From IMG/VR virus record IMGVR_UViG_3300008117_004642, positions 1-25,147 of that record: DNA of 25,147 nucleotides, one strand, 5' to 3'. Position 1 is the stretch's first letter. Every line of letters begins with the position of its first letter. Below the pieces are notes generated by a model, which saw only the letters and a list, made by a program, of their open reading frames with translations, did not search any database and had not been told where the DNA came from. The position numbers and the translations under genes were made by a program. This DNA comes from a virus. Below are positions 4,601 through 24,540 of this stretch, piece after piece.

Positions 4601-7600
4601 ATTCATACAGCGTAATCAGAGATAATGTTGGCGTAGCATATGCATGGGGATTTAACACAAGTGGTCAGTTAGGCACGGAAAATCTTATTGCAACACGTTC
4701 TATTCCAACTGTTGTTGGACCAACTACAGGTGTCACTGTTATAGATCAAAGCATATTTGCAAATATAGTTACTGGTGTAGGAACACAAGTTGACACTGAT
4801 GTAATACCTACAAGTGGCACTATAAGTGGATTATTCAATGGCATAAACGACTATTTAAGATGTGATGCTGCATTATCTACCTTTACAACTAATACAGATG
4901 AATTTACAATTGAAGGATATGCGTATCCTACAAGTTATACTGGATATACAACTGGTAGATTCATAATTGGTATTAATAGTATTGCAGGGGCGAATAATAA
5001 TTTATTAATAGGTGCAGATAGGCTTTACTATAATAATACAGTTGCTAATGGCGATAACATACCGTTAAACACATGGACACATTTTGCTGCTACATTTGAT
5101 GGAGTAACCTTTAGATATTTTATAGCTGGGGTAGAAGTTTATTCAACTGGTAGTAACCCTAATTTTGTGCTTAGCGATTGTGTGTTCTTAATTGGAACAG
5201 AGGCTGACAGTAGTAATGGGGCTGGATTAAGTAATTTCTTCCAAGGATACTTGTCAAGCATTAGAGTGACTCCTCAAGCTTTATATACAGGAGCATTTAC
5301 ACCCCCAACTGGTATACTTACAACAACAAGCGTGGGTACTTCTGGACCAAATGTTGCAACTAGTATTGAAGAAAATGTAACCTTCTTAATATATACCACA
5401 CCATCATCTGTTTCTGCACCTATCATACCTGAATTTAATGATATTCAAGCTGGATTTAACACTAGTGTTGGAATACAATCAGATTCATTATTATATACTT
5501 GGGGTGCAGGCACAGTTGGACAATTAGGAGTAGGTACTGCAATAAGTAGATCAAGTCCAATATTAGTTGGTGCTGATGGACAAACATTAAACACCTACAC
5601 TAATAGTCCAGTACAAGTTACAAATGCAAGTAACTATACACAAGTTTGGGCTGGTCAAAGCTTTAGCTTAGCAAAAGATACTTCAGGTAATGTTTATGGT
5701 TGGGGATTAGATACTTCAGGACAACTAGGATTAAATGTTGTAGCATCCCGTTCAAGTCCTGTGTTATTAGCAGCAAGTTCACCTTATGTGTTCACAGATA
5801 AAAGTGCATACGTTCAGACGATCACTAATGTTAATTCTTCCGTAGGTGTAGGACTGGCATTAATACCTTTTGTAGGATCTACTGCAGCGTATTTTATAGG
5901 TAATGCAACAAGAGCTGGTTTAAATTCATATCTTACTGTACCAACTACAGAAAGATTCCAATTTGGTACAGGCGATTTTACTGTTGAATTTTGGATACGA
6001 AAAGACACCTCATATCAAGCCGGCACAATAATGGCGTTAAATACTGCATCTTTAGGAAATTGGGCTGTTATAATGAGTTCTAGTTTCCTCTTTTGGCAGA
6101 ATGGGTATAGTGTCAATTCATTAGGATCTGGTGTTAATATAGATGCGTATTTGTCTATTAACACTTGGTCCCATGTTGCAGTTGTTAGAATTAGTAACTT
6201 TACTAACATATATGTAAACGGTATAAGTAGAGATAGTTTCACTGATAACCAAAATTACAATGGTGGGGGTATACTTAATATAGGAAGTACAAGCTCCCCT
6301 AACTATGGACCACTAGAGGGATACCTAAGTAATTTAAGAATTGTAAAAGGTGTGGGTGTTTACACAGGTACATTTACGCCACCTAACTCACCGCTACAAA
6401 GTTCACAGTCATCAGGTACAAATATCCAAGCGGTAACTTTAGGACAAACAAGTTTACTAGTTTTCAATATTCCATCATCAATAACCACTACTTCAGGTAC
6501 AACTTATACAAACTATTTTGTAAATTCTACAGCTACAGCAGCAATTGACACAACCGGTTTGTTATATATTTGGGGAGACAATTCAGCTGGTCAGTTAGGA
6601 TTAAACAATATAATTAATAGATCAAGTCCTACTATAGTTGGTGCAGGTAATTTTATTAACACAGGAACACGTAGTCCAGTTCAAGTTAAGTTCGGGTCGC
6701 CTAATAGTTGGTCTAGTGTAGCTGCAGGCAAATCATATAGTTTAGCAGTTGATGATGCAGGATCATTGTATGCATGGGGATTAGGCACAAGTGGACAATT
6801 GGGCCTAAGTGATATAATATCACGCTCATCACCGACCTTAGTTGGTGTTAACTTTACTGTTCTTGATTTAAGTGGACAAAATAATATTATCACTAGAAAC
6901 GGTAGTAGTTTTTCTACAACTGTTATCCCAACAGCAGGCTCAGTATCAGGATATTTTAATGGAATAAGTGATTACTTAAGAATTGATACAGCATTAGACA
7001 TATTTACTACAACTACTGATCAGTTTACTATTGAAGGTTATGTATATCCAACTAAGTTTGGTGAATTTTTTGATGCGAGTAGCTATTACTCTACAATAAC
7101 TGAAAGTTCAATGTCATATAGTGCTACAACAGTTCCTATGATAGGAGCTGCATCAGGATATTTTAGTGATGGATATTTTGCTGTAGCACCAACAAACACA
7201 GAAATTTTTGATTTTGCATCTGGCAATTTTACAGTTGAATGTTGGTTCTATATCGAAGGTAACAGTTTAACCGATAATCAAGGGAACAGAACAGCAACAC
7301 TGTTTTCAGTAGACAAAAGAAGTTTACCATTTTTAGATGATGGTTGGGGATTACTTATAAATGGAGATAGTTCTATAACAGGAACAGCGATTGCGTTCTT
7401 AGCTAGGAATGCAGGAGTTGCAACTTTCTTAACGTACACTGCAACTATAACGCAACAAATATGGCACCACGTTGCTGTGGTAAGAATTGGCAATTCACTA
7501 ACGATTTATTATGATGGTAGTAGTGTCGCTCAAAACAATAGTTGGACAACAACAGTAGTTAACAGCGGAGATAACTTACGAGTAGGCAGGCAGTTAGATG

Positions 7601-10600
7601 CAGATTATGTAAGAAATTTCTACGGATATATATCTAATGCTAGAGTAGTAAAAGGAATAGGAGTGTATACAGGTAACTTCACAGTTCCTACAAGCCCACT
7701 AACAGCTACTCAAAGTGCAGGAACTAATATTAATTCTATAAGTGGAACAGAAACAGTATTTTTATCATTGACTACTGAAGCAGCATCAATTTCAGGCGCT
7801 GCAAATGAATATTTTGTAGGTGTTAACTCGGCTGCAGGTGGTGAAAACACAGTAGGATTAGGTAACACTGGATATTTTTGGATGGGAGGTGTTGCTAATT
7901 TAAGATATTATTTCCCAATTAATACTTGGACGCATTTTGCATTAACCTTTGATTCAACACAAGGTACTCCTATTAAAGCTTTTGCAAATGGTATTCAGGT
8001 CGAAGAATCTACCACTGCCTCAACCACTGCCCTAGCCGATTGTACTTTCTTAATAGGTGCAGAAGCGGACAGTCCTAATGCAGGTGGATTAGGAAATTAT
8101 TACACTGGTTATCTTTCTAATCTACGTGTTGTTAAACAATGTTTATACACAGGTAATTTCACACCTCCTACAGGTATATTGACTGATTCAAGTGTTGGTA
8201 CTAGTGGTGCCAATGTTGCAGCTAGTTTAACAGGTACAGTGTCATTACTGACGTACACAACCCCTGCAAGTATAAGTGGAGGAGAACCAACTTATTTTAG
8301 TACAGTGGCGGCAGGCGATGGATACGCAGGCGGAATAGCAAACGATGCTTTATTGTATACTTGGGGTCTAAACACTAGTGGACAATTAGGACTTGACAAC
8401 GCTATCAGTACAAGCAGTCCAATACTAGTTGGTAATCGTCTTAACAGTAATACAAAGAGTCCGATATTAGCTGCATATGGTAGCTGGGCAACTGCAAGTG
8501 CTGGTGTTAGTTACAATCTTGCTATACAAGAGGATGCTACATTATGGGCATGGGGAATTAATAATGTTTATCAATTAGGACTCGGTGACATTATTACAAG
8601 ATCAAGCATTGTTCAGGTAGGAAGCGGAAGTATTGCATTTACTGACTCAAGCACAAATGCGTTTACGATATCAGTAAATGGTGCTCCATATATGGTGAGT
8701 ACAGAATCGCCTTATGCAAATTATCCTTATGATGTAGGTACGTATGGAGGCAGTGCATATTTTGATGGGGCAGATGATTATCTTTATATTACTGATGCAG
8801 TAGCAGGCACAAGTCTACAAATGGGAACAGGAGATTTTACTATTGAGTGTTGGATTTATTCTATCATAAGTCAACCAACCAATAGCGGGGTATTCAGTAA
8901 AGGTTCTCAGGCTGGATCAGGGTTTACACTAAACGTTTCAGCTACATCTATTGCAGTAAATGGGATAAGTTTAAGTAGTGCAAATACCATAACATTAAAT
9001 GTTTGGCATCATGTAGCTCTTGTAAGATATTCAGGTACAGCATATTTATACGTTGATGGCATTAGGCGTGACAGTGTACCAGATAGTCAAAACTTTAATC
9101 AAACTAATGATTTTAAGATTGGTCAGAGTAGAACCACTGGCAATTTTAATGGTTACATAAGTGACTTCCGTGTAGTAAAAGGCACAGCAGTCTATACTGA
9201 TGCAACCTATACAGTCCCAACTGAGCCTTTAACTGATGTTTCAGGTACAAATTTACTGACAGTAAGATATATTGACACAAGTTCAACAAATGCTTATGTA
9301 GATGTATCAGCAGGAAACAGTACTTCTGCTGCAATTAGAGTTAATAATTTACTATACACATGGGGGTTAGGTACAAGTGGACAATTAGGTGATAACTCAG
9401 CCGTAACGAAATCATTACCTACTCAAGTAGGAACAAGTAGTTGGAGTATTGTACCACGTAGTGGTAGTGTACACATGATAGGTTCTCAAATTGATTATTT
9501 ACTTTATGGATTTGGAAATAATGCGCAAGGACAATTAGGCACTAATACTGTAACAAACAGAAGTAACCCTATATTAGTAAGAGGCGTAAACGTTGTAACC
9601 AATTCTCCAACATTAGTTGAATCACAATGGGATGAAGTAAGTGCAGGGTTATCTTACACTGCTGGTATTTCAAGTACTAATCTATATACTTGGGGATTAA
9701 ATAGTTCAGGTCAAATAGGTGATGGCACAACAATAACAAAATCAAGCCCAACATTAATTGGTACTGCAGTTACAGTGACGGATGCTAGTGCAAATGGAAT
9801 TGCCATAACATTAAATAAAGCAGCAGCAATCACTACAAATAATATACCTTTCCCAAATAATACAATAGCTGTTTCATTGAATTTGACTAAAACAGGTGGT
9901 CAAAAAGGAAATTCTGATTACATTAGCTTCCCAACTAGCGCAGCAGTGACATGGGGAGGTTATGCTAATTATACTATTGAATGTTGGATTTATATAACAG
10001 GATATGGCGGCGTCGCCTCAACATTGTTAAGTGTAGGTACAGGTGGCTCAGCAACCTATGGCAGATGGGTAATTAGAAATGACGGATCAATTTATTACAG
10101 TCCAGGAACAGGAGCTTGGGCTTGGAATGATGCAACTATAGTTTCTACTGCTGCAGGTGTTGTGGAACTAAATGCTTGGCGACATGTTGCCATTGTAAAG
10201 GAAGGAGCACAGGTATCTCTCTATTACAATGGTAATAGAGAAGCTTATGACGCTACAAATACATTTAATGCTACTTCAACAGGAACGGTCTTTATAGGTT
10301 CTAATTATGACGATTGGAACGGACTTGGTGCTTATATCAAAGGTTATATTAGTAATTTTAGAATGACTTCTGCAGCCCTATACTCAGGTACAACTTACAC
10401 AGTTCCAACAAGTATATTTACAGTAGATAATGATACACAACTACTCATAATGGGAGAAGCTAATTTTTCAGCCCAATACAACGAAGTATTCACAGGTAGC
10501 GCAGCAACCTATGCAATACGTACCGATGGTAATTTCTATGCATGGGGATTAGGAACTACAGGTCAAGTAACTGGTCATATGTTAGCAATAAGTAGAAGTA

Positions 10601-12270
10601 ATCCAAATCAAATAGGAAATAATTATATCAATACTAATGTAAGTAGCCCTGCATTAATCGGAACAGGCAGTTGGAGTCAAGTTAGTGCAGGCATGAGTGC
10701 TAGTGCAGCAATTAGAAGCGATGGAAAATTATTTGTATGGGGCCGTGCAAGTGAAGGTCAGATCGGAAATAGTTCAACAATACAAAGATCAAGTCCAGTA
10801 CAAATTGGAACAGAAAGTTGGACTACTGTAAGCCTAAGAGAATACCATACTGCAGCTATAAACACAGCAGGAGAGTTGTATACTTGGGGTCAAAATGTTA
10901 TTGGTCAATTAGGATTAACGAATGTTAACGCTGCAGGAGATAAAATTAGTAGAAGTAGTCCGGTGCTTGTAGGATCAGCCTACAGTATCACTGATGTAAG
11001 TGGTCAAAGCAATATAATTACAAGAGTTGGTACTACATTTACTACAACAAATGTTCCTGTTGTTGGCTCTGTATCAGTGAACTTTAATGGAACAACTGAT
11101 TATCTAAGAGTTGATACTGCATTAGATATTTTTACAGTAAACACTGATGTGTTTACTATAGAAGGTTATATTTTCCCTACTTCTGGCGCATCAACTTTCT
11201 TTTTAGGAATAAACGGTGCTACAAGTGGTAGTAATATTGTGGTATTTGGACCAACTTCACAAACTTATTCAGCAGGTACAAATGTAAATTTAACTACATC
11301 CTTCCCACTTTCTACTTGGTCTCATTTCGCAGTTTCTTTTGATGGGGCTACTGCAAGATTTTTTAACAATGGCGAAATCGTTTCAACAGGCGCTGGCGTT
11401 CCAGGAACACTAGCAAATTGCGTATTACTTTTTGGGTGTGAAGCAGATAGTGCAGGTGCAGGAAGTTTAGGTAATTTCTTCTCAGGCAATTTATCTAATT
11501 TAAGAATTGTTAAGCAATGTTTATATTTTGGTGCATTTACACCGCCAACTGGTATATTAACTGATTCAACAGTAGGCACTTCAGGTGCAAATGTTGCTGC
11601 AAGCTTAACAGGTACGGTTTCTCTACTTACACTTACAACAGAGGCTGCAACAATTAACGGTGGAGTACCTGTGTATTTTAGTGATGTATCTACCGGATCA
11701 TCTACAACTGGTGCTGTAAGATCAGATGGATTGTTATTCATGTGGGGTAGCGGCACACGTGCTGAATTAGGCAATAACAGTTTAATAGATCGTTCAAGTC
11801 CAGTGCAGGTAGGACCTGTGGGTATAGGAGCATCAAATACAAGTTATACATCTGTCAATGCAGGTTATTTCTATTCAGGCGCAATAGGCAGTAACGGATT
11901 ACTATATATGTGGGGCTTTAATACCGCCCAAACTAATTTCCCTTCAATTTGGTATAATGCAACTGCAAGATCAAATCCAACTCAAATAGATGGAGTATAT
12001 GCTACTACAGCAGCAGCTACTAAGGTGCCAATTAGAAGTGGTAATAGTAGTTGGACGCAAGTTGAGGCTGGAAATAGTTTCTCATCAGGTTTATATTATA
12101 AAACTGCTGGACAAAATGGGTTATTGTACACATGGGGGCTTAATAGCATAGGTCAATTAGGGTTGAATGATACAGTTAATCGTAGTAGTCCTGCTCAAGT
12201 TGGTGTTAATACTTACTTGACAACAACAGTTGGATCAAGTAACGCAGGCGCAATAGGTAAGGCTACATAA
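1612..12270 (+). CDS. Giant RCC1-repeat/LamG adhesin-like phage protein, main fragment (3552 aa)
   Basis: The frame is open from 1510 and already reads as an RCC1 repeat from 1525 (D-N-L-L-Y-T-W-G-L-G-T-T-G-Q-L-G), so the GTG at 1612 is not a natural start; no ribosome binding site precedes it. About 20 more RCC1 repeats follow, usually two or three in a row, with LamG-like domains between them at about 4720-5418, 5780-6490, 8634-9285, 9770-10460 and 10972-11650. Two compound LamG units, at 2186-4340 and 6847-8276, contain further LamG domains inside them. Sequence is rich in Ser, Thr, Asn and Gly with almost no Lys or Cys, typical of secreted or virion fibres. There is no signal peptide or membrane segment. 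The family is known from large virion-associated proteins; adsorption to a host surface glycan is the best guess. The C-terminus after 12205 has no recognised anchor or autoprocessing domain. Confidence 0.85.
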   Translation: MSPTTIASTAWTEPTLIDSSSYTQIGAGNSNSFAIASDGTAYVWGLNTSGQLGFSDTISRSSPTVFNKPTVIGYSWKQIVLGYGDADYTGSIGADKSLYLWGNNQRGTIGDNSTISKSAPVSVAQDATTNINFAVPTRLFDNYSFSQINAGISYSLAVKSNDSAMFAWGQNTSGQYGDGSVVNISAPVIVGQSPISADAALAVLTITTPSGGPKATFDSPFASGSYNMITYGGSVYFNGGSRGLIAAETTTNIFSGIFASLEVFFKLDVLNVDQIFVAQDAGGATNAQIFQFGVNANNKLYFTYFTTSSRASITTLTSVNTINVNTWYHGLITYEKNSIVLTDYSNYEAALSYTFPQVSTTVIPTSAEISGYFDGTVNTIVEAPNTDNRFDFGTGAFTMECWFYPTLASYPSRGWSLLRVGTYNGSEYGIAITVFGANVRMAWTIPNSTGSTATAEPFVQNQWQHVAVVRSGSVLSFYYNGTLAGTQSGRGQNISTIGGAVIGGGYAANGSTTLSYPFQGYISNARIVKGVAVYTGNFTVPTPLLTVTQSAGTNISAITGNETSLLTYTISSGVSSTGYLRLFLNGNLETSGAPVAIYTALDRATGIGSTNSSIQNPLYGRLSNLRMVKDSIPADYDTDITVGITDQSTYASTIQNAGATFTTSSPIPFVGAASALFNGFGSYLQISNSGNKFDFGTGDFTCEGWVYATSEVSNLTGPFSFGNYNTGVSGVPYLSINGYLGKVAAYSNITGNTGGGNYLFGPTWNINTWYHFAIVRSSGVLYFYVDGIFIDSLIHTANYTSIPGTRIGAGDATGSTWRAGYYFPGYVSNIRIVKGVAVYTGNFTVPTSPLTVTQSAGTNISAITGNETSLLTLTNPSSINTGPVNSIFTVPTNLLTSTSENTTPENVVYLGLRSVPEYTVSNVVATGATTNFLNSDMIFYNTGLNSVAQLGINTTINRSTPVQLGDNTIFNGINTGFVSPLIATGLPGSWAQISAGNSYSVIRDNVGVAYAWGFNTSGQLGTENLIATRSIPTVVGPTTGVTVIDQSIFANIVTGVGTQVDTDVIPTSGTISGLFNGINDYLRCDAALSTFTTNTDEFTIEGYAYPTSYTGYTTGRFIIGINSIAGANNNLLIGADRLYYNNTVANGDNIPLNTWTHFAATFDGVTFRYFIAGVEVYSTGSNPNFVLSDCVFLIGTEADSSNGAGLSNFFQGYLSSIRVTPQALYTGAFTPPTGILTTTSVGTSGPNVATSIEENVTFLIYTTPSSVSAPIIPEFNDIQAGFNTSVGIQSDSLLYTWGAGTVGQLGVGTAISRSSPILVGADGQTLNTYTNSPVQVTNASNYTQVWAGQSFSLAKDTSGNVYGWGLDTSGQLGLNVVASRSSPVLLAASSPYVFTDKSAYVQTITNVNSSVGVGLALIPFVGSTAAYFIGNATRAGLNSYLTVPTTERFQFGTGDFTVEFWIRKDTSYQAGTIMALNTASLGNWAVIMSSSFLFWQNGYSVNSLGSGVNIDAYLSINTWSHVAVVRISNFTNIYVNGISRDSFTDNQNYNGGGILNIGSTSSPNYGPLEGYLSNLRIVKGVGVYTGTFTPPNSPLQSSQSSGTNIQAVTLGQTSLLVFNIPSSITTTSGTTYTNYFVNSTATAAIDTTGLLYIWGDNSAGQLGLNNIINRSSPTIVGAGNFINTGTRSPVQVKFGSPNSWSSVAAGKSYSLAVDDAGSLYAWGLGTSGQLGLSDIISRSSPTLVGVNFTVLDLSGQNNIITRNGSSFSTTVIPTAGSVSGYFNGISDYLRIDTALDIFTTTTDQFTIEGYVYPTKFGEFFDASSYYSTITESSMSYSATTVPMIGAASGYFSDGYFAVAPTNTEIFDFASGNFTVECWFYIEGNSLTDNQGNRTATLFSVDKRSLPFLDDGWGLLINGDSSITGTAIAFLARNAGVATFLTYTATITQQIWHHVAVVRIGNSLTIYYDGSSVAQNNSWTTTVVNSGDNLRVGRQLDADYVRNFYGYISNARVVKGIGVYTGNFTVPTSPLTATQSAGTNINSISGTETVFLSLTTEAASISGAANEYFVGVNSAAGGENTVGLGNTGYFWMGGVANLRYYFPINTWTHFALTFDSTQGTPIKAFANGIQVEESTTASTTALADCTFLIGAEADSPNAGGLGNYYTGYLSNLRVVKQCLYTGNFTPPTGILTDSSVGTSGANVAASLTGTVSLLTYTTPASISGGEPTYFSTVAAGDGYAGGIANDALLYTWGLNTSGQLGLDNAISTSSPILVGNRLNSNTKSPILAAYGSWATASAGVSYNLAIQEDATLWAWGINNVYQLGLGDIITRSSIVQVGSGSIAFTDSSTNAFTISVNGAPYMVSTESPYANYPYDVGTYGGSAYFDGADDYLYITDAVAGTSLQMGTGDFTIECWIYSIISQPTNSGVFSKGSQAGSGFTLNVSATSIAVNGISLSSANTITLNVWHHVALVRYSGTAYLYVDGIRRDSVPDSQNFNQTNDFKIGQSRTTGNFNGYISDFRVVKGTAVYTDATYTVPTEPLTDVSGTNLLTVRYIDTSSTNAYVDVSAGNSTSAAIRVNNLLYTWGLGTSGQLGDNSAVTKSLPTQVGTSSWSIVPRSGSVHMIGSQIDYLLYGFGNNAQGQLGTNTVTNRSNPILVRGVNVVTNSPTLVESQWDEVSAGLSYTAGISSTNLYTWGLNSSGQIGDGTTITKSSPTLIGTAVTVTDASANGIAITLNKAAAITTNNIPFPNNTIAVSLNLTKTGGQKGNSDYISFPTSAAVTWGGYANYTIECWIYITGYGGVASTLLSVGTGGSATYGRWVIRNDGSIYYSPGTGAWAWNDATIVSTAAGVVELNAWRHVAIVKEGAQVSLYYNGNREAYDATNTFNATSTGTVFIGSNYDDWNGLGAYIKGYISNFRMTSAALYSGTTYTVPTSIFTVDNDTQLLIMGEANFSAQYNEVFTGSAATYAIRTDGNFYAWGLGTTGQVTGHMLAISRSNPNQIGNNYINTNVSSPALIGTGSWSQVSAGMSASAAIRSDGKLFVWGRASEGQIGNSSTIQRSSPVQIGTESWTTVSLREYHTAAINTAGELYTWGQNVIGQLGLTNVNAAGDKISRSSPVLVGSAYSITDVSGQSNIITRVGTTFTTTNVPVVGSVSVNFNGTTDYLRVDTALDIFTVNTDVFTIEGYIFPTSGASTFFLGINGATSGSNIVVFGPTSQTYSAGTNVNLTTSFPLSTWSHFAVSFDGATARFFNNGEIVSTGAGVPGTLANCVLLFGCEADSAGAGSLGNFFSGNLSNLRIVKQCLYFGAFTPPTGILTDSTVGTSGANVAASLTGTVSLLTLTTEAATINGGVPVYFSDVSTGSSTTGAVRSDGLLFMWGSGTRAELGNNSLIDRSSPVQVGPVGIGASNTSYTSVNAGYFYSGAIGSNGLLYMWGFNTAQTNFPSIWYNATARSNPTQIDGVYATTAAATKVPIRSGNSSWTQVEAGNSFSSGLYYKTAGQNGLLYTWGLNSIGQLGLNDTVNRSSPAQVGVNTYLTTTVGSSNAGAIGKAT
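2623..3339 (+). other. LamG domain nested inside another LamG domain (first insert of compound unit 2186-4340)
   Basis: A complete LamG domain (F-D-F-G-T-G-A-F-T-M-E-C-W, W-Q-H-V-A-V-V-R, Y-I-S-N-A-R-I-V-K-G, Y-T-G-N-F-T-V-P-T) sits directly after the W-Y-H-G-L-I-T-Y-E-K-N strand of an outer LamG that began at about 2186. The outer domain resumes at about 3340 with Y-L-R-L-F-L-N-G-N-L and R-L-S-N-L-R-M-V-K-D, the parts the first half lacks. Boundaries are good to roughly ten codons. Confidence 0.7.
3505..4254 (+). other. LamG domain nested inside another LamG domain (second insert of compound unit 2186-4340)
   Basis: After the outer domain's S-N-L-R-M-V-K-D-S, a second full LamG domain begins at I-T-D-Q-S-T-Y and runs through F-D-F-G-T-G-D-F-T-C-E-G-W to N-E-T-S-L-L-T-L-T. 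The outer domain then appears to finish with V-N-S-I-F-T-V-P-T-N-L-L-T, which matches the normal Y-T-G-N-F-T-V-P-T-S-P-L-T tail of the family. The split into three pieces is inferred from this pattern of missing and recovered motifs. Confidence 0.6.
7063..7800 (+). other. LamG domain nested inside the LamG domain spanning 6847-8276
   Basis: The outer domain starts as usual (Y-F-N-G-I-S-D-Y-L-R, Q-F-T-I-E-G-Y-V-Y-P-T) and is cut after that strand. A full LamG domain follows (F-D-A-S-S-Y-Y to L-T-T-E-A-A-S-I-S). The outer domain resumes at 7801 with N-E-Y-F-V-G-V-N-S-A-A-G-G and W-T-H-F-A-L-T-F-D. The intact relatives at 4720-5418 and 10972-11650 have these two halves joined directly. Confidence 0.75.
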
Positions 12271-12330: not shown

Positions 12331-14046
12331 ATGCATCCAATTGATCAATTATTGGCTTATCAACTAGAAGGAAAACAAAAAGAAGCTTGGGCGATATCCG
12401 AGCAAATGGAAAGTGAAGGTCCAGACAACTGCAAGGACCCATCAGGAAAAGTAAATCCAGAAACATGGATACGTCATAGCTTCAATCGCGGCTGGTTTTT
12501 GTTACAACAAGGCGATTATCAAAAAGGTTGTCAGTTATTAGAGAATGGAAGGTTCATTAGTGTATATGGAAGTGGACCATTAAAAACTGATGCACCTATC
12601 TACAATCCACAAGAGCATGATATTAAGGGTAAATCAATCATTATATCATTGGAAGGTGGTTATGGTGATGAAATTATTCATGCACGTTTTGCACAAAGTT
12701 TTAAAGAGCAAGGCGCTGATAAAGTTTATCTAGCAGCAGCGCCTGAAATGGTGAGCGTGTTTAAACGAATACCTGGTGTTGATGATGTAATATTACGCAA
12801 TGCTGCGCACACAGTGAAACATGATTATTGGGTACCTGGCTTTAGTGCAGGATGGGTAGCCGGTCACACATTTGATAACTTCCCAGGCAAACCATATATG
12901 AGTCCACTAGACGCAAGCGTGGAAATATGGAAGAATTTAATTAATAGTGATAAGATTAAAATTGGAATTCGTTGGGCAGGAAATCCTAAGTTTGAACATC
13001 AACAGTTTAGAAAGTTTCCTGAAGCTTTCATGACTAATCTTGTGAAGTATAAAGAAGTACAAATTTATAGTTTGCAACGTGATCATAACATAATTCAATT
13101 ACCTGAAGGTGTGACTGACTTACAACATTTCTTGTTAAGTTGGGAAGATACAATGGCATGTATTGCTAACTTAGATATCGTTATTACTAGTTGTACAAGT
13201 ATTGCACATATTGCTGCAGCAATGGGTAAAGAAACATGGGTCACACCTCCTATACTACCTTATCATACATGGGCGTATGGAAGTCCTGAAAATGATCGTA
13301 GTCCTTACTATGAATGTGTAAGATTGTTTAGACAAGAAGAAGCAGGTAAATGGAATACAACATTTCAAAAACTATACCGTGCATTAGAAGAAAAGTTTAA
13401 TTTAGAGCATGTTGAGATGCCAAATGAAGATAAACAATTAAAACGTCTTAATTTAGGGTGCGGACTCAAAAAGTTTGATGGATACTTAAATGTTGATAGT
13501 AGTGAACTAGTAAAACCAGATGAAGTTGTTGATTTAAATGTTACTCCTTGGCCTTGGCGTGACAATGAATTCGGACATATTGTTGCCAAAGACATATTAG
13601 AACATTTAGGTGATACACCTGATGACTTTATTAAAATTATGAAAGAGATGTATCGTGTCAGTGACAATGGTGCTGTATGGGAAGTACAAGTACCACATTG
13701 GCGTTGTGATGTTGCATTAGATGATCCTACACATAAACGATTGCTAACGTTGGGTTCGTTTATGCTGTTAAATCAAAAGAAAATGTTTGAAAGACTAAAA
13801 GAAGATAACAGCGATTCATTATTATCATTTGAACATGATATTGATTTAGAAGTTTGTGATGTAAACTTTGATTATTTACCACACTGGAAAGAACGACTTA
13901 AAAAGGGTGAAATAACTGAAGATGATTTGAATTATGCATTAAACACGTTTAACAATGTCGCATTAAGTATGCGTGTGTTAATTCAAGTTAATAAACCAGG
14001 TCGTGTATCATTGGGTGAACTAGAAGCTTATATTGCGAATAGATAA
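12331..14046 (+). CDS. Glycosyltransferase (GT9/OGT-like, TPR-type N-terminus) fused to a SAM-dependent methyltransferase
   Basis: The first 80 residues include a TPR-like helical pair (G-W-F-L-L-Q-Q-G-D-Y-Q-K-G). A GT-B fold transferase follows: S-L-E-G-G-Y-G-D-E-I-I-H-A-R-F at about 106-120, a Rossmann-like strand K-I-G-I-R-W-A-G-N at 210-218, and the sugar-nucleotide region with S-C-T-S-I-A-H-I-A-A-A-M-G-K at 287-300. This resembles TPR proteins with a GT9 (heptosyltransferase-like) or GT41-like domain. From about 370 there is a class I methyltransferase: L-N-L-G-C-G-L-K-K-F-D-G-Y at 373-385, an acidic D-L-N-V, and D-I-L-E-H-L at 421-426. The product would be cytosolic. The acceptor is unknown. 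It is the first gene after the late promoter and has a good ribosome binding site. Because ADP-heptose genes lie downstream, heptose is a plausible donor sugar, but this is inferred. Confidence 0.75.
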   Translation: MHPIDQLLAYQLEGKQKEAWAISEQMESEGPDNCKDPSGKVNPETWIRHSFNRGWFLLQQGDYQKGCQLLENGRFISVYGSGPLKTDAPIYNPQEHDIKGKSIIISLEGGYGDEIIHARFAQSFKEQGADKVYLAAAPEMVSVFKRIPGVDDVILRNAAHTVKHDYWVPGFSAGWVAGHTFDNFPGKPYMSPLDASVEIWKNLINSDKIKIGIRWAGNPKFEHQQFRKFPEAFMTNLVKYKEVQIYSLQRDHNIIQLPEGVTDLQHFLLSWEDTMACIANLDIVITSCTSIAHIAAAMGKETWVTPPILPYHTWAYGSPENDRSPYYECVRLFRQEEAGKWNTTFQKLYRALEEKFNLEHVEMPNEDKQLKRLNLGCGLKKFDGYLNVDSSELVKPDEVVDLNVTPWPWRDNEFGHIVAKDILEHLGDTPDDFIKIMKEMYRVSDNGAVWEVQVPHWRCDVALDDPTHKRLLTLGSFMLLNQKKMFERLKEDNSDSLLSFEHDIDLEVCDVNFDYLPHWKERLKKGEITEDDLNYALNTFNNVALSMRVLIQVNKPGRVSLGELEAYIANR

Positions 14047-14729
14047 TGTTAAAACTAGATTATAGTTATGATCTAAGCATTGAGTCTACCTACATTATAA
14101 CAATTAAGAATCATTCCGTAAGTGAAGGTTTGTCAGCAAGGTGTCAACAAAGCCTTGCTGCACTTAATATGCCTTACAAAGTATGGGACGCATTTGATGG
14201 TACTAGTGGACAGATCAAACTGCCAGATCACGCACAAGGTAAAAGTTGGTATAGTTGGCTAAAGTGGGTAGATAAAGAACTTAGTATTACAGAGGTTAGT
14301 GCTGCACTTAGTCATATCAGTTTATGGGCGCATTGCATAGAGTTAGATAGACCTATTATAATTTTAGAGCATGATGCAATTATGATTAAAGAGTTACGTG
14401 ACCATCCTGTTATAGGTTGTATTCACTACTTAGGTGCTATTGAACAAGCAAAGAAGGGTTGGCCTGTATTAGTTACACCTCCCCATGCAACTAATGGTCA
14501 CAACTATCATTTTATTTGTAGGGCACATGCATATTCTATTGATCCATGGGTAGCTAAGAATTTATTATCACAAGTATTAAAATATGGCATCTGTGAAAGC
14601 TTAGATATAATGATTAGAAGTGATATCTTCCCTGCAGTGCAAATGGGATTGTATGCATATGATGAACCTGATTTACCAAACACAACAATAGTTGGAAGAA
14701 AAAAAACTATTGATGGTAAGGAACGCTAA
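14046..14729 (+). CDS. Glycosyltransferase family 25-like protein
   Basis: The 227-residue protein has the layout of GT25 transferases of LPS oligosaccharide synthesis. An N-terminal strand S-T-Y-I-I-T-I-K is followed by S-L-A-A-L-N-M-P-Y-K-V-W-D-A-F-D-G (36-52), then the conserved block I-T-E-V-S-A-A-L-S-H-I-S-L-W (81-94) and the nucleotide-sugar/metal segment I-I-L-E-H-D-A (105-111). That segment is E-D-D-A in most relatives; the first Asp is a His here, which could alter metal use. The start overlaps the previous stop (TAATG), so translation is probably coupled. Length is close to the family norm. Donor and acceptor cannot be read from the sequence. Confidence 0.75.
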   Translation: MLKLDYSYDLSIESTYIITIKNHSVSEGLSARCQQSLAALNMPYKVWDAFDGTSGQIKLPDHAQGKSWYSWLKWVDKELSITEVSAALSHISLWAHCIELDRPIIILEHDAIMIKELRDHPVIGCIHYLGAIEQAKKGWPVLVTPPHATNGHNYHFICRAHAYSIDPWVAKNLLSQVLKYGICESLDIMIRSDIFPAVQMGLYAYDEPDLPNTTIVGRKKTIDGKER

Positions 14730-16027
14730 TGTATTCTATTGTTATACCACACTTAAGTAATAGCAGATATATTGATAAATGTATTGAATACATTAAGAAG
14801 AATAGTAAATATGATCCTGAAATAATTCAAATAGTTGACGAAACTGATGTCTACTATGCCTTTAACAAAGGTGTTTATCAAGCAAAATATGATGTAGTTG
14901 TTTTGATGAGTGATGACATGTTCGTTAGCAAACATTGGGATGAGGTGTTTCCAATGTATGTTGCAGAAGATACATTTTTAACTATGCATGTAGTTGAGCC
15001 TGAGCCAGGAAAAATGAATGGCCCACAATGTATAGAATTTGATTGCGGCGATGACCTAACTAACTTTGACTACGATAAGTTTCAGCAATTTGTAGATGTT
15101 AACAAAGCATACGTGCCTGAAATTGAGTTTAATAAAATTGGTTGGTACATGCCATTTGTAGTACACCGTAAAAGTTTCGTGTCATATCCAAACATTGACA
15201 AATTCCCTTTATACGCCAATGATGTGACACTTTTTCATTCAATTTTACCTAATTTAGGATATAAATTTGCATTAGTTAACAGTTTCGTGTATCATTTCCA
15301 AAGAAAGAGCACCAAACAACTTTACCAAGAGAAAATTATGAAAAAACGTGCTATATTTACATATAGTAATCATCAAATAGAAGATAAGATATCTTACCTA
15401 CAAAAGCAGATGATTGCTAAGTTTAACAAAAATAAGTTATGCAAATACGAATATTTGCATTATAAAAAACCAGACGGGGAAATGACACCAGACGAAGTTA
15501 TTACGTATGGGCTAGAAAAACTTTTTTACGAAGATAATTATCACACTATACTGATGCTTGATATTGATTGTGTGCCATTAAGTGAACATGCACTAGAATA
15601 TACATTTCAACGTGCAGAAGAAGGTGTTCTAATTGGTAACGTGCAGCGCAGTAATCATTTAGAGAATGGTAAACACATATATCCTGCTCCTAGCTGTATT
15701 GCATTGACTAAAGAAATGTACGAAAAATTAGGTAAGCCTAGTTGGAAACCAAACGCACGTAGCGACATAGGTGAAGAGTTAGCTTATGAAGCAGAAAAGC
15801 AAGGTATAGAAATGGAAATGTATATGCCAAGCAAATATGAAGAAATTCCATATTGGAATACAGGAGAACGTAAACCTTGGGACTTACGTGACGGTGACCC
15901 ACAATTTGGTATCGGCACTACGTTTGTAGACAAGGACGGTAATGAAATGTTCTATCATTTATTCCAAAGTAGATTGAATGTATTCAATCACTTATTCTTC
16001 TTAAAATGTGCGAGTGTCATGCTATGA
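14729..16027 (+). CDS. Two-domain glycosyltransferase (GT2-like plus a second DxD-containing domain)
   Basis: Residues 1 to about 200 look like a GT2-type GT-A fold: Y-S-I-V-I-P-H-L at the N-terminus, A-F-N-K-G-V at 44-49, and the metal-binding region V-V-L-M-S-D-D at 57-63. Residues 204-432 form a second unit that starts at an in-frame ATG (15338) and contains L-M-L-D-I-D-C (274-280), a likely DxD motif, and P-S-C-I-A-L-T. I do not recognise that second unit's family exactly. An AAGAG stretch at 15327-15331 sits six bases before the internal ATG, so the second unit could also be made separately. The gene starts in a TAATG overlap with a strong AAGGA site (14718-14722) and ends in an ATGA overlap. 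It looks like a fusion of two transferases acting in one glycan pathway. Confidence 0.65.
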   Translation: MYSIVIPHLSNSRYIDKCIEYIKKNSKYDPEIIQIVDETDVYYAFNKGVYQAKYDVVVLMSDDMFVSKHWDEVFPMYVAEDTFLTMHVVEPEPGKMNGPQCIEFDCGDDLTNFDYDKFQQFVDVNKAYVPEIEFNKIGWYMPFVVHRKSFVSYPNIDKFPLYANDVTLFHSILPNLGYKFALVNSFVYHFQRKSTKQLYQEKIMKKRAIFTYSNHQIEDKISYLQKQMIAKFNKNKLCKYEYLHYKKPDGEMTPDEVITYGLEKLFYEDNYHTILMLDIDCVPLSEHALEYTFQRAEEGVLIGNVQRSNHLENGKHIYPAPSCIALTKEMYEKLGKPSWKPNARSDIGEELAYEAEKQGIEMEMYMPSKYEEIPYWNTGERKPWDLRDGDPQFGIGTTFVDKDGNEMFYHLFQSRLNVFNHLFFLKCASVML

Positions 16028-16704
16028 CAAGTACATACGATATTTTTTACAAGTTAAAGTTACTTAGTAAAAAGTGGAATAATTATTTTGAAGTTTACGA
16101 TAAAATTCTTAATCCCTATATAGGTAAAAATCCTAAAATGTTAGAGATTGGGGTCGCACACGGTGGTAGTGTTGAATTGTGGCTCAAGTATTTTGACAAT
16201 GAAGTTGACCTTCATGCAGTTGACATTAACAAAGATTTTCTAGATTATAAATTTGACGATGCTAAGGTAAATTATGCTTGTGTGGACCAAAGTAGTTTGG
16301 AGCATTGGAACGCATATTTAAGTAGCCATTCAAATTTTGATATCATAATAGATGATGGTAGTCATGATAGTGATCATCAAATCATTACTTTATTAACACT
16401 ATTTCCAATTTTAAATGATAATGGTATCTACGTTATTGAAGATACACATACTAGTTATTGGCCAGAGTGGGGCGGTGGTTTACACAAAAAAGGAACCTTT
16501 ATTGAATTTGCTAAACAACTTGTTGACTTATTACACGCACCTCACATAAGAGAAAGTGCGCCACCTGCATTAGAAAAAGCATTTAAAAATTTAAAGTCAG
16601 TAACCTTCCATAATAGTATGGTTGTACTTGAAAAAGGAATAACAAGACCATCTACAGAGGCGGTAAGTACTGCTAATAGAAACCCTAATTTTACTTGGGG
16701 ATAA
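16024..16704 (+). CDS. Class I SAM-dependent methyltransferase (TylF/CmcI-like)
   Basis: The start is placed at the ATG at 16024, which overlaps the previous stop as ATGA. A possible ATG at 16006 would add six unconserved residues. The motif I SAM-binding loop is M-L-E-I-G-V-A-H-G-G-S at 39-49, followed by an acidic H-A-V-D-I-N at 64-69. The pair I-I-D-D-G-S-H (108-114) and V-I-E-D-T-H-T-S-Y-W (137-146) are typical of TylF/CmcI-like sugar or small-molecule O-methyltransferases and of rhamnosyl-type methyltransferases in polysaccharide clusters. Its place among glycosyltransferases suggests that it methylates a sugar or sugar chain. Length (226 residues) fits. The substrate is unknown. Confidence 0.75.
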   Translation: MTSTYDIFYKLKLLSKKWNNYFEVYDKILNPYIGKNPKMLEIGVAHGGSVELWLKYFDNEVDLHAVDINKDFLDYKFDDAKVNYACVDQSSLEHWNAYLSSHSNFDIIIDDGSHDSDHQIITLLTLFPILNDNGIYVIEDTHTSYWPEWGGGLHKKGTFIEFAKQLVDLLHAPHIRESAPPALEKAFKNLKSVTFHNSMVVLEKGITRPSTEAVSTANRNPNFTWG

Positions 16705-16705
16705 C

Positions 16706-17497
16706 ATGGTAGATTTGCTTGTAGTTTTACAAAGTCACAGCCTAACAAATAATCAAAAACAAATTACTAGGTACATGTGTCAAGATAAAAGCGAGATTAG
16801 TTATCGCTGTATAAAATCATTAGTAAACACATTAAATCATTGCAAAAAAGAAAAGCCAAATGAAGTTAACATAAAACTTGTAGTGTTAGATGACCATAGT
16901 GATGAACCTTTTCTTAAAAGATTGGATTCTATTTTGTCTGAGTGTAATTTTCAATATGAATTGCGACATTTAGAAACACGTGGAATTATGCCAAGCATTC
17001 TTGCATGTTATGAATATGGCAGAGATAAAGGCAAAGATTTAGTTTATTTTGCACAAGATGATTATCTTTATTTTGAAACGTGCATGTATGAAATGCTAGA
17101 TGCATATTTTAGATTTAGTGAAAAATCTAAATTACCTGTATGTATATATCCATTTGATGACCCATATAGATATGGGATACCTCCTGACAGACAGCCATTA
17201 GTATCTGTTCATTTAGGAATCAAACGGCATTGGAGAACAGCATTTGGTACTGCTAGTTGCTTTATGGTAGATCATCCGACATTGGTGAAAAACTTTGATT
17301 TATTTGACGCCATGGGAAAACACGCTGTAGATAGTGTGATGGAAGACGAAACTATAAATAGATTGTTCAATGAAAGAGGATGTCTACTATTCACTCCTAT
17401 TCCAAGTATAGCATTACATGCTCAAGCAGATACAGAAAAAGATCCATACATTGATTGGAAAGCATTATGGGATCAATTTGAAGAGGGTAAAATATGA
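16706..17497 (+). CDS. Glycosyltransferase family 2-like protein
   Basis: The protein (263 residues) starts two bases after the previous stop and has a GT-A style layout. There is a strand with an acidic cluster, K-L-V-V-L-D-D-H-S-D-E (57-67), as in GT2 proteins, and a second site, L-V-Y-F-A-Q-D-D-Y (112-120), matching the DxD-type metal and nucleotide-sugar site. It lacks any membrane segment. A conserved-looking E-D-E-T near residue 216 could supply the catalytic base. It ends in an ATGA overlap with the nucleotidyltransferase gene, so the two are probably translated together. The TATAAATA at 17353-17360 inside this gene encodes T-I-N-R and is probably incidental. Donor and acceptor are unknown. 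Confidence 0.65.
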   Translation: MVDLLVVLQSHSLTNNQKQITRYMCQDKSEISYRCIKSLVNTLNHCKKEKPNEVNIKLVVLDDHSDEPFLKRLDSILSECNFQYELRHLETRGIMPSILACYEYGRDKGKDLVYFAQDDYLYFETCMYEMLDAYFRFSEKSKLPVCIYPFDDPYRYGIPPDRQPLVSVHLGIKRHWRTAFGTASCFMVDHPTLVKNFDLFDAMGKHAVDSVMEDETINRLFNERGCLLFTPIPSIALHAQADTEKDPYIDWKALWDQFEEGKI

Positions 17498-17889
17498 AAA
17501 AAGTTTTTGTAAATGGTACATTTGATTTACTGCATGAGGGTCACATAGCCTTGCTAGAATATGCAAAAACTTTAGGTGAAACTTTAGCAGTTGCAATTGA
17601 TAGTGATGAAAGAGTTAAACAATTAAAAGGTCCTGATAGACCTATACAAGATCAAAAAGAAAGAACAAACGCCCTAATAGCATTGAAAGCAGTCAATGAC
17701 GTTTATATATTTGATACTGATGATGAATTAGAGTGGCTTGTTTCAGTTCATGATGTAATGGTAAAGGGCAGTGACTACAAAGACAAACCAATAATTGGTG
17801 AAAGTGTTTGTAAAGAATTAGTGTTTTTTGATAGAATAGATGGATATAGCACAACACAAAAAATACAAGATATTGCTGATAGGGGATAA
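17494..17889 (+). CDS. hldE (C-terminal domain): Heptose-1-phosphate adenylyltransferase, HldE C-terminal-domain type
   Basis: This is a short nucleotidyltransferase (131 residues) with the signature V-N-G-T-F-D-L-L-H-E-G-H at 6-17, whose H-x-G-H motif binds nucleotide. The rest follows the E. coli HldE C-terminal domain closely: L-K-G-x-x-R-P (44-50), D-V-M-V-K-G-S-D-Y-K, then the end motif D-G-Y-S-T-T-x-x-I. The last element and the overall fit favour ADP-heptose synthesis over the related glycerol-phosphate cytidylyltransferase TagD. The reaction would join D-glycero-beta-D-manno-heptose 1-phosphate and ATP to give ADP-heptose. In E. coli this domain is fused behind the kinase. Here it is a separate gene placed before the kinase. 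A strong site (AAGAGGG, 17481-17487) precedes the ATG. Confidence 0.8.
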   Translation: MKKVFVNGTFDLLHEGHIALLEYAKTLGETLAVAIDSDERVKQLKGPDRPIQDQKERTNALIALKAVNDVYIFDTDDELEWLVSVHDVMVKGSDYKDKPIIGESVCKELVFFDRIDGYSTTQKIQDIADRG

Positions 17890-18592
17890 TGGGATTGACC
17901 AATATCAATACGGGACTGTAGATAGATTAAGTCCTGAAGCTCCTGTGCCGGTGTTAGCATTCATTAAAACTGAATCCAAACCTGGTATGGCAGCAAATGT
18001 AAAAGAAAATTTATTAGCATTAAATTGTGACGTTGATTTTGAACACGGAGTAAAAACTTGTATAAAAACAAGAATTATAGATTTAAAAAGTAAACAACAG
18101 TTATTAAGAATTGACCAAGATGCATTAAGTCGCCCTGTCAATATTAATTATGATCTATCCGTTTTTGATGCAATTGTGATTAGTGATTATAATAAAGGCT
18201 CAGTCACATATGAGTTAGTAGAAAAACTTATTACTACATATAAAGGACCTATTTTCGTTGATACTAAAAAAACTGATTTACAAAGATTTGAAGGATGTTT
18301 TGTAAAAATTAATCATAAAGAATACGAAGCTGCGAAAACGTTCCCTAGTGAATTAATTGTTACTTTGGGTAGTGAAGGAGTTAAATATAAAGACAAAAAG
18401 ATTCCAGCAAGCAACGTAGAGGCATTTGATGTATGTGGTGCCGGAGATACCTTTTTGTCAGCACTAACGTATGGATATTTAGAAAGTAAAAATATTGTTG
18501 AAGCAATAGAATTTGCAGTAAAAGCAAGTACACTAACAATTCAACATATTGGAGTTTATGCACCAACATTAGAGGAGATTAAGAATGTCTGA
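17840..18592 (+). CDS. hldE (N-terminal domain): Heptose-7-phosphate kinase, HldE N-terminal-domain type (PfkB family, compact)
   Basis: This PfkB/ribokinase-type kinase shows the HldE-specific start K-I-L-L-I-G-D-x-x-x-D-Q-Y-x-Y-G (10-25) and R-L-S-P-E-A-P-V-P-V (29-38). The glycine motif appears as K-P-G-M-A-A-N-V (47-54), and then come Q-L-L-R-I-D (87-92) and S-D-Y-N-K-G (115-120). The catalytic anion-hole motif is D-V-C-G-A-G-D-T (197-204), with Asp203 as base. It would phosphorylate heptose 7-phosphate at C1. At 250 residues it is about 65 shorter than the E. coli kinase domain. The main loss is after residue 70, where the lid region of the family lies. The ATG at 17840 is the first codon after a stop in this frame and is needed to keep the first strand. 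It overlaps the preceding gene by 50 bases, with no clear ribosome binding site. Confidence 0.8.
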   Translation: MDIAQHKKYKILLIGDNGIDQYQYGTVDRLSPEAPVPVLAFIKTESKPGMAANVKENLLALNCDVDFEHGVKTCIKTRIIDLKSKQQLLRIDQDALSRPVNINYDLSVFDAIVISDYNKGSVTYELVEKLITTYKGPIFVDTKKTDLQRFEGCFVKINHKEYEAAKTFPSELIVTLGSEGVKYKDKKIPASNVEAFDVCGAGDTFLSALTYGYLESKNIVEAIEFAVKASTLTIQHIGVYAPTLEEIKNV

Positions 18593-18974
18593 AAGACTTC
18601 AAGGACAAGTAGAAAAAGGATGGGGTAGTGAATTTATTTTTACTACAAATGATAAGTATTGTGGCAAATTGCTATCTTTTAAAAAAGATAGTAGATTTAG
18701 TATGCATTTTCACAAAGAAAAAGATGAAACATGGTTAGTTTTGTCTGGGAAATTTATATTAAGATACATAGATTTAACTAATGCCACACATTATGAAATG
18801 GAATTAGCTGGAGGTAATGTTTGGAGAAACCCACCATTAACACCGCATCAACTTATATGCATAGAAGAAGGCACTATAGTCGAGGTCAGTACTCCTGACA
18901 GTGTGGAGGACAACTATCGAATACTACCGGGTGATAGCCAAAAACAACAAGCTGAACAAACAAACGAAGAATGA
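18585..18974 (+). CDS. Cupin protein, sugar isomerase/epimerase-like
   Basis: A single-domain cupin of 129 residues. The first cupin motif is textbook: H41-x-H43-x4-E48-x6-G55, supplying three metal ligands. The second motif is G-G-N-V-W-R-N-P-P-L-T-P-H88, supplying the fourth. The tail V-E-V-S-T-P-D-S-V-E-D-N-Y-R-I resembles the mannose-6-phosphate isomerase-type cupins that occur in sugar-nucleotide clusters. The exact reaction cannot be assigned. A strong AGAGGAG (18571-18577) precedes the ATG at 18585, which lies within the last codons of the kinase gene. The gene sits between the kinase and HldD, so its substrate may be a heptose phosphate or ADP-heptose, but that is context only. The Gln-rich end (after 118) is probably disordered. 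Confidence 0.65.
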   Translation: MSERLQGQVEKGWGSEFIFTTNDKYCGKLLSFKKDSRFSMHFHKEKDETWLVLSGKFILRYIDLTNATHYEMELAGGNVWRNPPLTPHQLICIEEGTIVEVSTPDSVEDNYRILPGDSQKQQAEQTNEE

Positions 18975-19768
18975 AATTATTAATTACAGGTCATAAAGGC
19001 TTTATTGGAAGTAATATGGTTAAAGCCTTATCTACAGATCACGACATAATCACATACGAGTGGGAAGAGGAATTTCCTAACATTTCTGATTGTGATTGTG
19101 TAATTCATATTGGTGCTATTTCAAGTACAACTGAAAAAAATGTAGAAAAAATTATGACACAAAATTATGATTTTAGTTGCATGTTACTTGATAAATGTTT
19201 ACAGCTAAAAGTAAATTTTCAATATAGCAGCAGTGCTAGTGTTTATGGTCTTAATGAAAATTTTAGAGAAGATGCTCCTGTAGATCCTCGCACACCTTAT
19301 GCGTGGAGCAAATATATGTTTGAAAGATACGCTCAATCAAAACATGATATAGCAAAAGATTTGAATTTAAGTATTCAAGGGTTTCGATATTTTAATGTTT
19401 ATGGACACAATGAAGAACATAAAGGAAGCCAAGCTAGCCCGTACACTCAATTTAGTAAACAGGCTAGCGAAAATGGAGTTATAAAGGTTTTTGAAAATAG
19501 CCAAGCTTATATGCGAGATTTCATACACGTAAACAAGGTAATTGAAATTCATAAAACATTTTTATCAATAAAATCTCAGGGAGTTTATAATGTTGGTACT
19601 GGTAGTACAAAAAGTTTTATGGAAATTGCTTCAGGTATTGCAATTCAAACCGGCGCTACAATTGAAAAAATACCAATGCCTCCGGAGCTAGCACATAGCT
19701 ATCAAAAATATACCTGTGCAGATTTATCACTATTAACAACAACAATAAATGAACATCTTTCAAATTGA
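18971..19768 (+). CDS. hldD: ADP-L-glycero-D-manno-heptose 6-epimerase
   Basis: This is a short-chain (extended SDR) sugar-nucleotide epimerase. It has the NAD(P) loop G7-H-K-G10-F-I-G13 and the catalytic Y110-x-x-x-K114. S-S-S-A-S-V-Y-G (86-93) precedes the catalytic pair. It shares HldD-specific blocks with the E. coli enzyme: G-F-R-Y-F-N-V-Y-G (137-145), E-H-K-G-S-Q-A-S (149-156), M-R-D-F-I-H-V, G-V-Y-N-V-G-T-G, and a C-terminal S-Y-Q-K-Y-T-C-A-D-L. It would invert C6 of ADP-D-glycero-D-manno-heptose, the last step of the pathway. The length of 265 residues is some 45 below the bacterial norm. The start is an ATGA overlap with the cupin gene. These blocks make it much more likely HldD than a generic UDP-sugar epimerase. 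Confidence 0.85.
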   Translation: MKLLITGHKGFIGSNMVKALSTDHDIITYEWEEEFPNISDCDCVIHIGAISSTTEKNVEKIMTQNYDFSCMLLDKCLQLKVNFQYSSSASVYGLNENFREDAPVDPRTPYAWSKYMFERYAQSKHDIAKDLNLSIQGFRYFNVYGHNEEHKGSQASPYTQFSKQASENGVIKVFENSQAYMRDFIHVNKVIEIHKTFLSIKSQGVYNVGTGSTKSFMEIASGIAIQTGATIEKIPMPPELAHSYQKYTCADLSLLTTTINEHLSN

Positions 19769-24258: not shown

Positions 24259-24540
24259 ATGCCAAAATTAAGTAGAAAAGGTGATACAGATCAACCCGGC
24301 GGAGCTATAATGCGAGGTGCAGGGACTGTATTTGCGAATGGTATACCAGTAGGCTTACATGTAAGCCGAATAACACCACACGCACCATGGGGTGACCCTC
24401 ACCCGCCGCATCGTGCGGCTACGACTACAAATGGTAGTCCAAGTGTTTTTGCTGAGGGATGTCCTGTGCTTAGAGTAGGTTCGGGAAATAGCTGTGGACA
24501 TAGTATCGTCACAGGTAGCCCTGACATATTTTGCCCATGA
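24259..24540 (+). CDS. PAAR-domain tail spike tip protein
   Basis: PAAR proteins cap the membrane-piercing spike of T4-like phages (gp5.4) and type VI secretion systems as a zinc-bearing cone. The 93-residue protein is full length for a single domain and has the repeated short beta motifs of the family: G-A-G-T-V-F-A-N-G-I-P (20-30), N-G-S-P-S-V-F-A-E-G-C-P-V (58-70), then H-S-I-V-T-G-S-P-D-I (81-90). Likely zinc ligands are among His34, His41, His48, His51, His81 and Cys92. The middle segment (34-51) is unusually His- and Pro-rich. It starts after GGATAAGG and ends in an ATGA overlap with the next gene. Confidence 0.8.
   Translation: MPKLSRKGDTDQPGGAIMRGAGTVFANGIPVGLHVSRITPHAPWGDPHPPHRAATTTNGSPSVFAEGCPVLRVGSGNSCGHSIVTGSPDIFCP

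Follow-up and report, generated by a model that had tools for sequence, protein, structure and literature searches.

ADP-heptose (ADP, adenosine diphosphate) is made in E. coli through five activities, which are provided by GmhA, HldE, GmhB and HldD. Related gene sets occur in viruses. The cyanophages P-SSM2 (PSSM2_309-313), S-CAM1, S-SSM7 and Sf-FS3 carry a heptose cluster with an adenylyltransferase, a kinase, a cupin and an HldD-type epimerase, as well as a HAD phosphatase adjoining the cupin, and a published cyanophage genome note mentions heptose-related lipopolysaccharide (LPS) genes (PMC7378029). Here, a comparable gene cassette is described in a 25,147-nucleotide stretch of viral DNA (the window), which forms the start of the 47,417-base record IMGVR_UViG_3300008117_004642 of IMG/VR; the record may itself be a fragment. 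The cassette consists of four plus-strand genes that overlap at their ends in the list of open reading frames (ORFs):

17494..17889, + strand: stand-alone HldE-type adenylyltransferase, 131 residues (rfaE_dom_II, phrog_7878, motif positions)
17840..18592, + strand: compact PfkB kinase, putative D-glycero-D-manno-heptose 7-phosphate 1-kinase, 250 residues (rfaE_dom_I, AlphaFold2, PDB matches, invariant residues)
18585..18974, + strand: cupin, proposed metal-dependent sedoheptulose-7-phosphate isomerase, 129 residues (Pfam, alignments, AlphaFold2, context, swap and fusions)
18971..19768, + strand: HldD-type ADP-heptose 6-epimerase, 265 residues (TIGR02197, PDB 1eq2, residue positions)

With a probability of about 0.7, these genes form an ADP-heptose cassette in which the cupin stands in for GmhA, with four of the five steps encoded as putative activities. 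Three of the five activities are shared with the E. coli pathway by homology and the reaction order is the same. In contrast to E. coli, however, HldE is split in two, the kinase is compact, a cupin takes the place of the SIS-fold GmhA and GmhB is missing from the record. The window phage also differs from the cyanophages above in having no phosphatase next to its cupin.

In the proposed pathway, sedoheptulose 7-phosphate from the host would be converted by the cupin to D-glycero-D-manno-heptose 7-phosphate (the GmhA step), followed by phosphorylation of O-1 by the PfkB kinase. The 7-phosphate would be removed by a HAD phosphatase, either a host enzyme or the product of a gene outside the record; in about half of the relatives a putative phosphatase of this kind lies in the same cassette. 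The small adenylyltransferase would then generate ADP-D,D-heptose, and the HldD-type enzyme would epimerize its C6 to yield ADP-L,D-heptose. This donor may be used by phage or host glycosyltransferases, for example by the products of the glycosyltransferase-like genes upstream (12331-17497), which would change the glycan on the surface of the host cell during infection. Direct observations comprise the sequence homologies, gene neighborhoods and fusions, the conserved residues and predicted folds, and the mutual exclusion of cupin and GmhA; the enzymatic activities, the cupin's in particular, and what the cassette is for are all deduced from these. The cupin is regarded as the probable GmhA replacement because of its context, this exclusion and the fusions.

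An earlier interpretation of the DNA alone (the sequence-only reading) had recognized three heptose genes at 17494-19768 and proposed profile searches of their products. In these searches each protein fits its heptose family far better than the related families. The adenylyltransferase scores 109.7 bits with rfaE_dom_II (E 9.9e-32) and 51.6 bits with the TagD model (E 9.5e-14), the kinase 152.4 bits with rfaE_dom_I (E 1.5e-44) and 56.9 bits with ribokinase, and the epimerase 221.4 bits with heptose_epim (TIGR02197, E 1.5e-65) and 81.7 bits with GalE. The three genes are thus borne out with matches far beyond chance, and the quoted kinase, adenylyltransferase and epimerase motifs are all present, but the fourth gene, the cupin between kinase and epimerase, had not been listed.

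All three scores fall below the curated equivalog cut-offs of NCBIfam (181.5, 345 and 274.6 bits for adenylyltransferase, kinase and epimerase, respectively), so the proteins are divergent. By its score, the adenylyltransferase appears as a divergent phage subfamily and not as an equivalog. It matches phrog_7878 (E 2.7e-40) and displays HEGH (the HxGH motif of nucleotidyltransferases) at residues 14-17, KGSDY at 91 and GYSTT at 117. The nearest solved relative of the kinase by sequence search is HldA (4e84). Its AlphaFold2 model has a mean pLDDT of 92.9, and in a PDB search with this model ranks 1-7 are all HldA (4e84, 4e8w, 4e8y and 4e8z; E 1e-21 to 5e-19), followed by ribokinase (5e-15). The GAGD motif (200-203) is invariant in alignments A2 and A4; the latter shows that the catalytic motif is kept although the heptose kinases of phages fall short of the bacterial HldE kinase domain (about 315 residues) by about 65 residues. 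For the epimerase, the nearest solved relative is HldD (1eq2, E 2.7e-44). In the alignment with 1eq2, Y110 and K114 form the YxxxK motif, while K151 in EHKGS aligns with K178, the second catalytic lysine of E. coli HldD.

The scores below the curated cut-offs, together with the shortened phage enzymes, would also fit a cassette for another sugar (such as a polyol or hexose activated with CDP or ADP) that is built from TagD-, fructokinase- and GalE-like enzymes. This is improbable, however, as the best models are all heptose models, the second catalytic lysine is retained and HldA fills the first seven ranks of the structural search with the kinase. Moreover, the three genes occur together in phages as well as in operons of archaea in which kinase and adenylyltransferase score above the curated cut-offs. 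TagD, ribokinase and GalE identities were rejected on the lead of the heptose models (58 to 140 bits) and on the diagnostic residues. The kinase, adenylyltransferase and 6-epimerase assignments are supported by profiles, by these residues and by one predicted structure.

The cupin matches Pfam Cupin_2 and, just below the gathering score, MannoseP_isomer (23.0 versus 23.6 bits); 27 of 46 relatives match the latter at E <= 0.01. The metal motif HxH...E...H is complete, with H41, H43, E48 and H88 invariant over the 62 sequences of alignment A3; the same holds for K11, W13, E16, K46, E100, D109 and R112. The AlphaFold2 model (pLDDT 93) displays a jelly-roll fold, unlike the SIS fold of GmhA. Among its close structural matches are the cupin domain of CapF (Z 14.9), D-lyxose isomerases (Z 13.3-13.4) and the archaeal phosphomannose isomerases 7zvm/7zvy (VIA Z 14.2). 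Phosphomannose and D-lyxose isomerases catalyze the same aldose-ketose chemistry as the proposed step, and the isomerization of mannose 6-phosphate and fructose 6-phosphate corresponds to the GmhA reaction on a sugar with one carbon less. Type II phosphomannose isomerases (the C-terminal domain of GMP/PMI and the archaeal enzymes mentioned) share the cupin fold and the HxH...E...H motif with the window cupin and isomerize a sugar phosphate; their context is mannose, whereas that of the window cupin is heptose. As many other cupins are nearly as close in structure, the fold alone decides nothing on the function and was not used as proof. Among the papers available for searching, none was found that connects a cupin to sedoheptulose-7-phosphate isomerization.

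Relatives of the window kinase are encoded by 370 IMG/VR stretches. From these, 80 loci were kept, and component profiles were built against them and the cyanophages. Neighborhoods were counted in 41 non-redundant IMG/VR loci that extend 2.5 kb or more beyond the kinase in both directions. The adenylyltransferase is found near the kinase in 40 of these, the cupin in 39 and the epimerase in 34, while GmhA is found in none (0/41). Nor did the GmhA profile TIGR00441 detect a homolog in any of the 28 phage records that were searched whole, among them 7 complete cyanophages and the record of the window. Two phages (L089 and L090) encode cupin and adenylyltransferase as one fused protein. HAD phosphatases of three types occur in the phage loci (a 102-residue type, a 160-residue type and canonical GmhB); one type is present near the kinase in 19 of the 41 loci, and two are never found together. 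As judged from their sequences, the phages carry a kinase, often a phosphatase, an adenylyltransferase, an epimerase and one conserved cupin, without a recognized isomerase.

The sequence-only reading had placed GmhA and GmhB outside the window and proposed to look for both in the rest of the record. As far as homologs are concerned this holds: no GmhA was found in the 47.4 kb, and three HAD profiles and a DxDGT-type motif revealed no HAD phosphatase among the ORFs of the record, whose possible fragment status means that this absence is not proof. What had been overlooked is the cupin, which most probably does the job of GmhA. The missing GmhB step could also suggest that the genes are passengers, non-functional or transient, which play no part in infection. 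This is highly improbable for a set of intact ORFs with conserved active-site residues and 370 IMG/VR relatives, in which the cupin recurs in 39 of 41 loci.

Cyanophage genomes contain a gene annotated as 'phosphoheptose isomerase', which was considered as the missing GmhA. Its product of about 110 residues starts with MRYxVDIDGTIC in most copies and matches EcbF-BcbF (E 1e-8). By motif and profile it is a HAD phosphatase and no SIS-fold GmhA, and it therefore does not supply GmhA; its sequence points to a GmhB-like enzyme as the probable identity. The annotation appears to be wrong throughout, in P-SSM2 (PSSM2_311, L002:7737-8081) and in the counterparts of S-CAM1, S-SSM7, Sf-FS3, Sf-CH5, P-TIM68 and S-SM2.

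In tblastn searches against phage records, the cassette genes were detected in P-SSM2, P-SSM5, S-CAM1, S-CAM3, S-SSM7, S-T4, Sf-FS3, P-TIM68 and S-SM2 at about 34-51% identity; no close relation of the window phage to P-SSM2, S-CAM1, S-SSM7 and Sf-FS3 was seen at the DNA level. As these cyanomyoviruses have the same genes and the published genome note mentions heptose-related LPS genes, phage-encoded ADP-heptose synthesis as such is already known, and the window phage is another, diverged member.

The cupin is also found in what appears to be the GDP-heptose branch (GDP, guanosine diphosphate). The GmhA step lies upstream of both the ADP- and the GDP-heptose branch and is common to both. In the cyanophages Bellamy and SynMITS9220M01 the cupin is located between an HddA-type GHMP kinase (E 7e-83 and 3e-85) and a nucleotidyltransferase (L169:4973-6946 and L168:4943-6946). 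The latter is HddC-like in Bellamy, the one scanned.

Further evidence comes from archaea. The gene order cupin, HldD, kinase, GmhB, adenylyltransferase was observed in several Woesearchaeota and Nanoarchaeota. In one such operon (L135), the kinase (383 bits) and the adenylyltransferase (190.7 bits) exceed the curated cut-offs, the epimerase lies 4.8 bits under its own (269.8 versus 274.6), GmhB is clear though below its cut-off, and the cupin matches the phosphomannose isomerase part of GMP_PMI (E 9e-8). Going by these matches, L135 appears to encode the whole ADP-heptose pathway with the cupin in GmhA's place. L135 and its relatives share the cupin family and the pathway with the phage and likewise lack GmhA; unlike the phage, they are cellular, have a full-length kinase and a canonical GmhB, and are often fused.

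Cupin and GmhA also exclude each other. Among 234 sampled genomes of this archaeal class (nanoarchaea), 39 contain the kinase, and these 39 were searched for GmhA and the cupin. Within 5 kb of the kinase the cupin was found in 11 and GmhA in 9 genomes, and both in none (one-sided Fisher p 0.03, relatedness of the genomes ignored). Genome-wide, canonical GmhA is present in 12 and the cupin in 14 genomes with an overlap of 0 (p 0.001, relatedness ignored), and with laxer thresholds the overlaps amount to 1 and 3 genomes (p 0.005 and 0.04, relatedness ignored). In addition, five genomes encode a kinase with the cupin fused to its C-terminus, and one genome has GmhA fused at that same position. 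The fusion of an isomerase to the kinase, the next enzyme, is chemically sensible. A GmhB-cupin-adenylyltransferase fusion occurs in one genome and a cupin-epimerase fusion in an archaeal locus (L136). It seems rather likely, if slightly less so than the reading of the cassette itself, that the cupin family of phages, nanoarchaea and some bacteria constitutes a second, unrelated class of sedoheptulose-7-phosphate isomerase that feeds both the ADP- and the GDP-heptose branch.

Alternatively, heptose 7-phosphate could be supplied by the GmhA of the host, and the cupin could catalyze another sugar step, such as an epimerization or modification after activation that yields a variant heptose. Nucleotide-sugar epimerases and modifying enzymes of the cupin type are known, the cupin domain of CapF ranks with the best structural hits, WbuC-like cupins are the nearest NCBIfam match of the window cupin, and GmhA is present in some of the cupin-bearing genomes. 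A host-supplied GmhA is nonetheless unlikely to be the explanation. It does not account for the mutual exclusion of cupin and GmhA beside the nanoarchaeal kinase, for their identical fusion position or for a cupin in both the ADP- and GDP-heptose branches, which share upstream steps only, and the five-gene cupin operons would otherwise be without an isomerase alone.

Several observations weigh against the cupin as GmhA replacement. Cupins catalyze many reactions, and the fold is matched equally well by oxalate decarboxylase, the CapF cupin domain and the isomerases. When genomes were scanned with the cupin alignment, 56 cellular loci were retrieved; only half of them (28) have a heptose-type kinase nearby, so the cupin family is broader than the heptose pathway. 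Several bacteria (L095, L110 and L114) carry the cupin and a real GmhA elsewhere in the genome, a further cluster (L138) combines the cupin with a weak SIS protein, and in SynMITS9220M01 a second HddA lies next to a gene with a weak SIS match (47 bits). The Fisher p values of the exclusion ignore the kinship of the genomes. A repeat in Paceibacteria points in the same direction but comprises only 9 genomes with the kinase, which is too small, and none of them has a cupin beside it. Lastly, there is the missing phosphatase of the phage record.

The cassette is preceded by genes in the same orientation that may be related to surface glycans:

12331..17497, + strand: surface-glycan genes upstream of the cassette, candidate users of the heptose donor
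gene 12331, + strand: methyltransferase domain, weak GT9 signal
gene 14046, + strand: GT25-like
gene 14729, + strand: GT2-like
gene 16006, + strand: methyltransferase
gene 16706, + strand: no family, kept in the nearest relatives

For gene 12331, an identity as a GT9 heptosyltransferase is no more than hinted at. The Pfam match has an E value of 0.15, a sequence search of the PDB gave nothing convincing, and the seven relatives found are too close for deepening a profile.

Elsewhere in the window, a 3,552-residue ORF (1612-12270) alternates RCC1-like 'AWGLGTSGQLG' repeats with LamG-like 'FTMECWVYP' domains and by eye looks like a giant repetitive tail fiber or adhesin. The open ORF before it (2-1555) shows the same repeat make-up by eye. 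A 93-residue PAAR-like protein of the tail spike tip type (24259-24540, by eye) is encoded between a small gene and the next long ORF. Downstream in the same record, genes that by eye resemble those for radical-SAM enzymes and dioxygenases form a cluster, which in part occupies both strands (L009:4172-11075 and L010:311-5863). The stretch L010:7234-9717 contains two peroxiredoxin-like genes, of which one has diverged, as well as a gene of AhpD type and one for a small protein resembling cytochrome c (CLGCH); similar peroxiredoxin and AhpD-like genes recur by heptose cassettes in other contigs (clusters 28 and 29).

With respect to the hosts, the LPS of the Synechococcus hosts of the cyanophages lacks heptose (PMC4515613). 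Within the Prochlorococcus family, 121 genomes were sampled and only 27 contain a GmhA-like gene of any kind, so most of them would require an isomerase brought in by the phage. The sequence-only reading had raised the possibility of a heptose-less host, which is consistent with these cyanophage relatives. The phage gene set itself is of a known kind. What is new is that the cupin probably represents a second class of sedoheptulose-7-phosphate isomerase. If true, the missing first heptose step would be filled in hundreds of phages and in nanoarchaea, and the cyanophage 'phosphoheptose isomerase' would be corrected to a phosphatase. It would also explain how phages of mostly heptose-less cyanobacteria could synthesize heptose, with the host supplying only sedoheptulose 7-phosphate.

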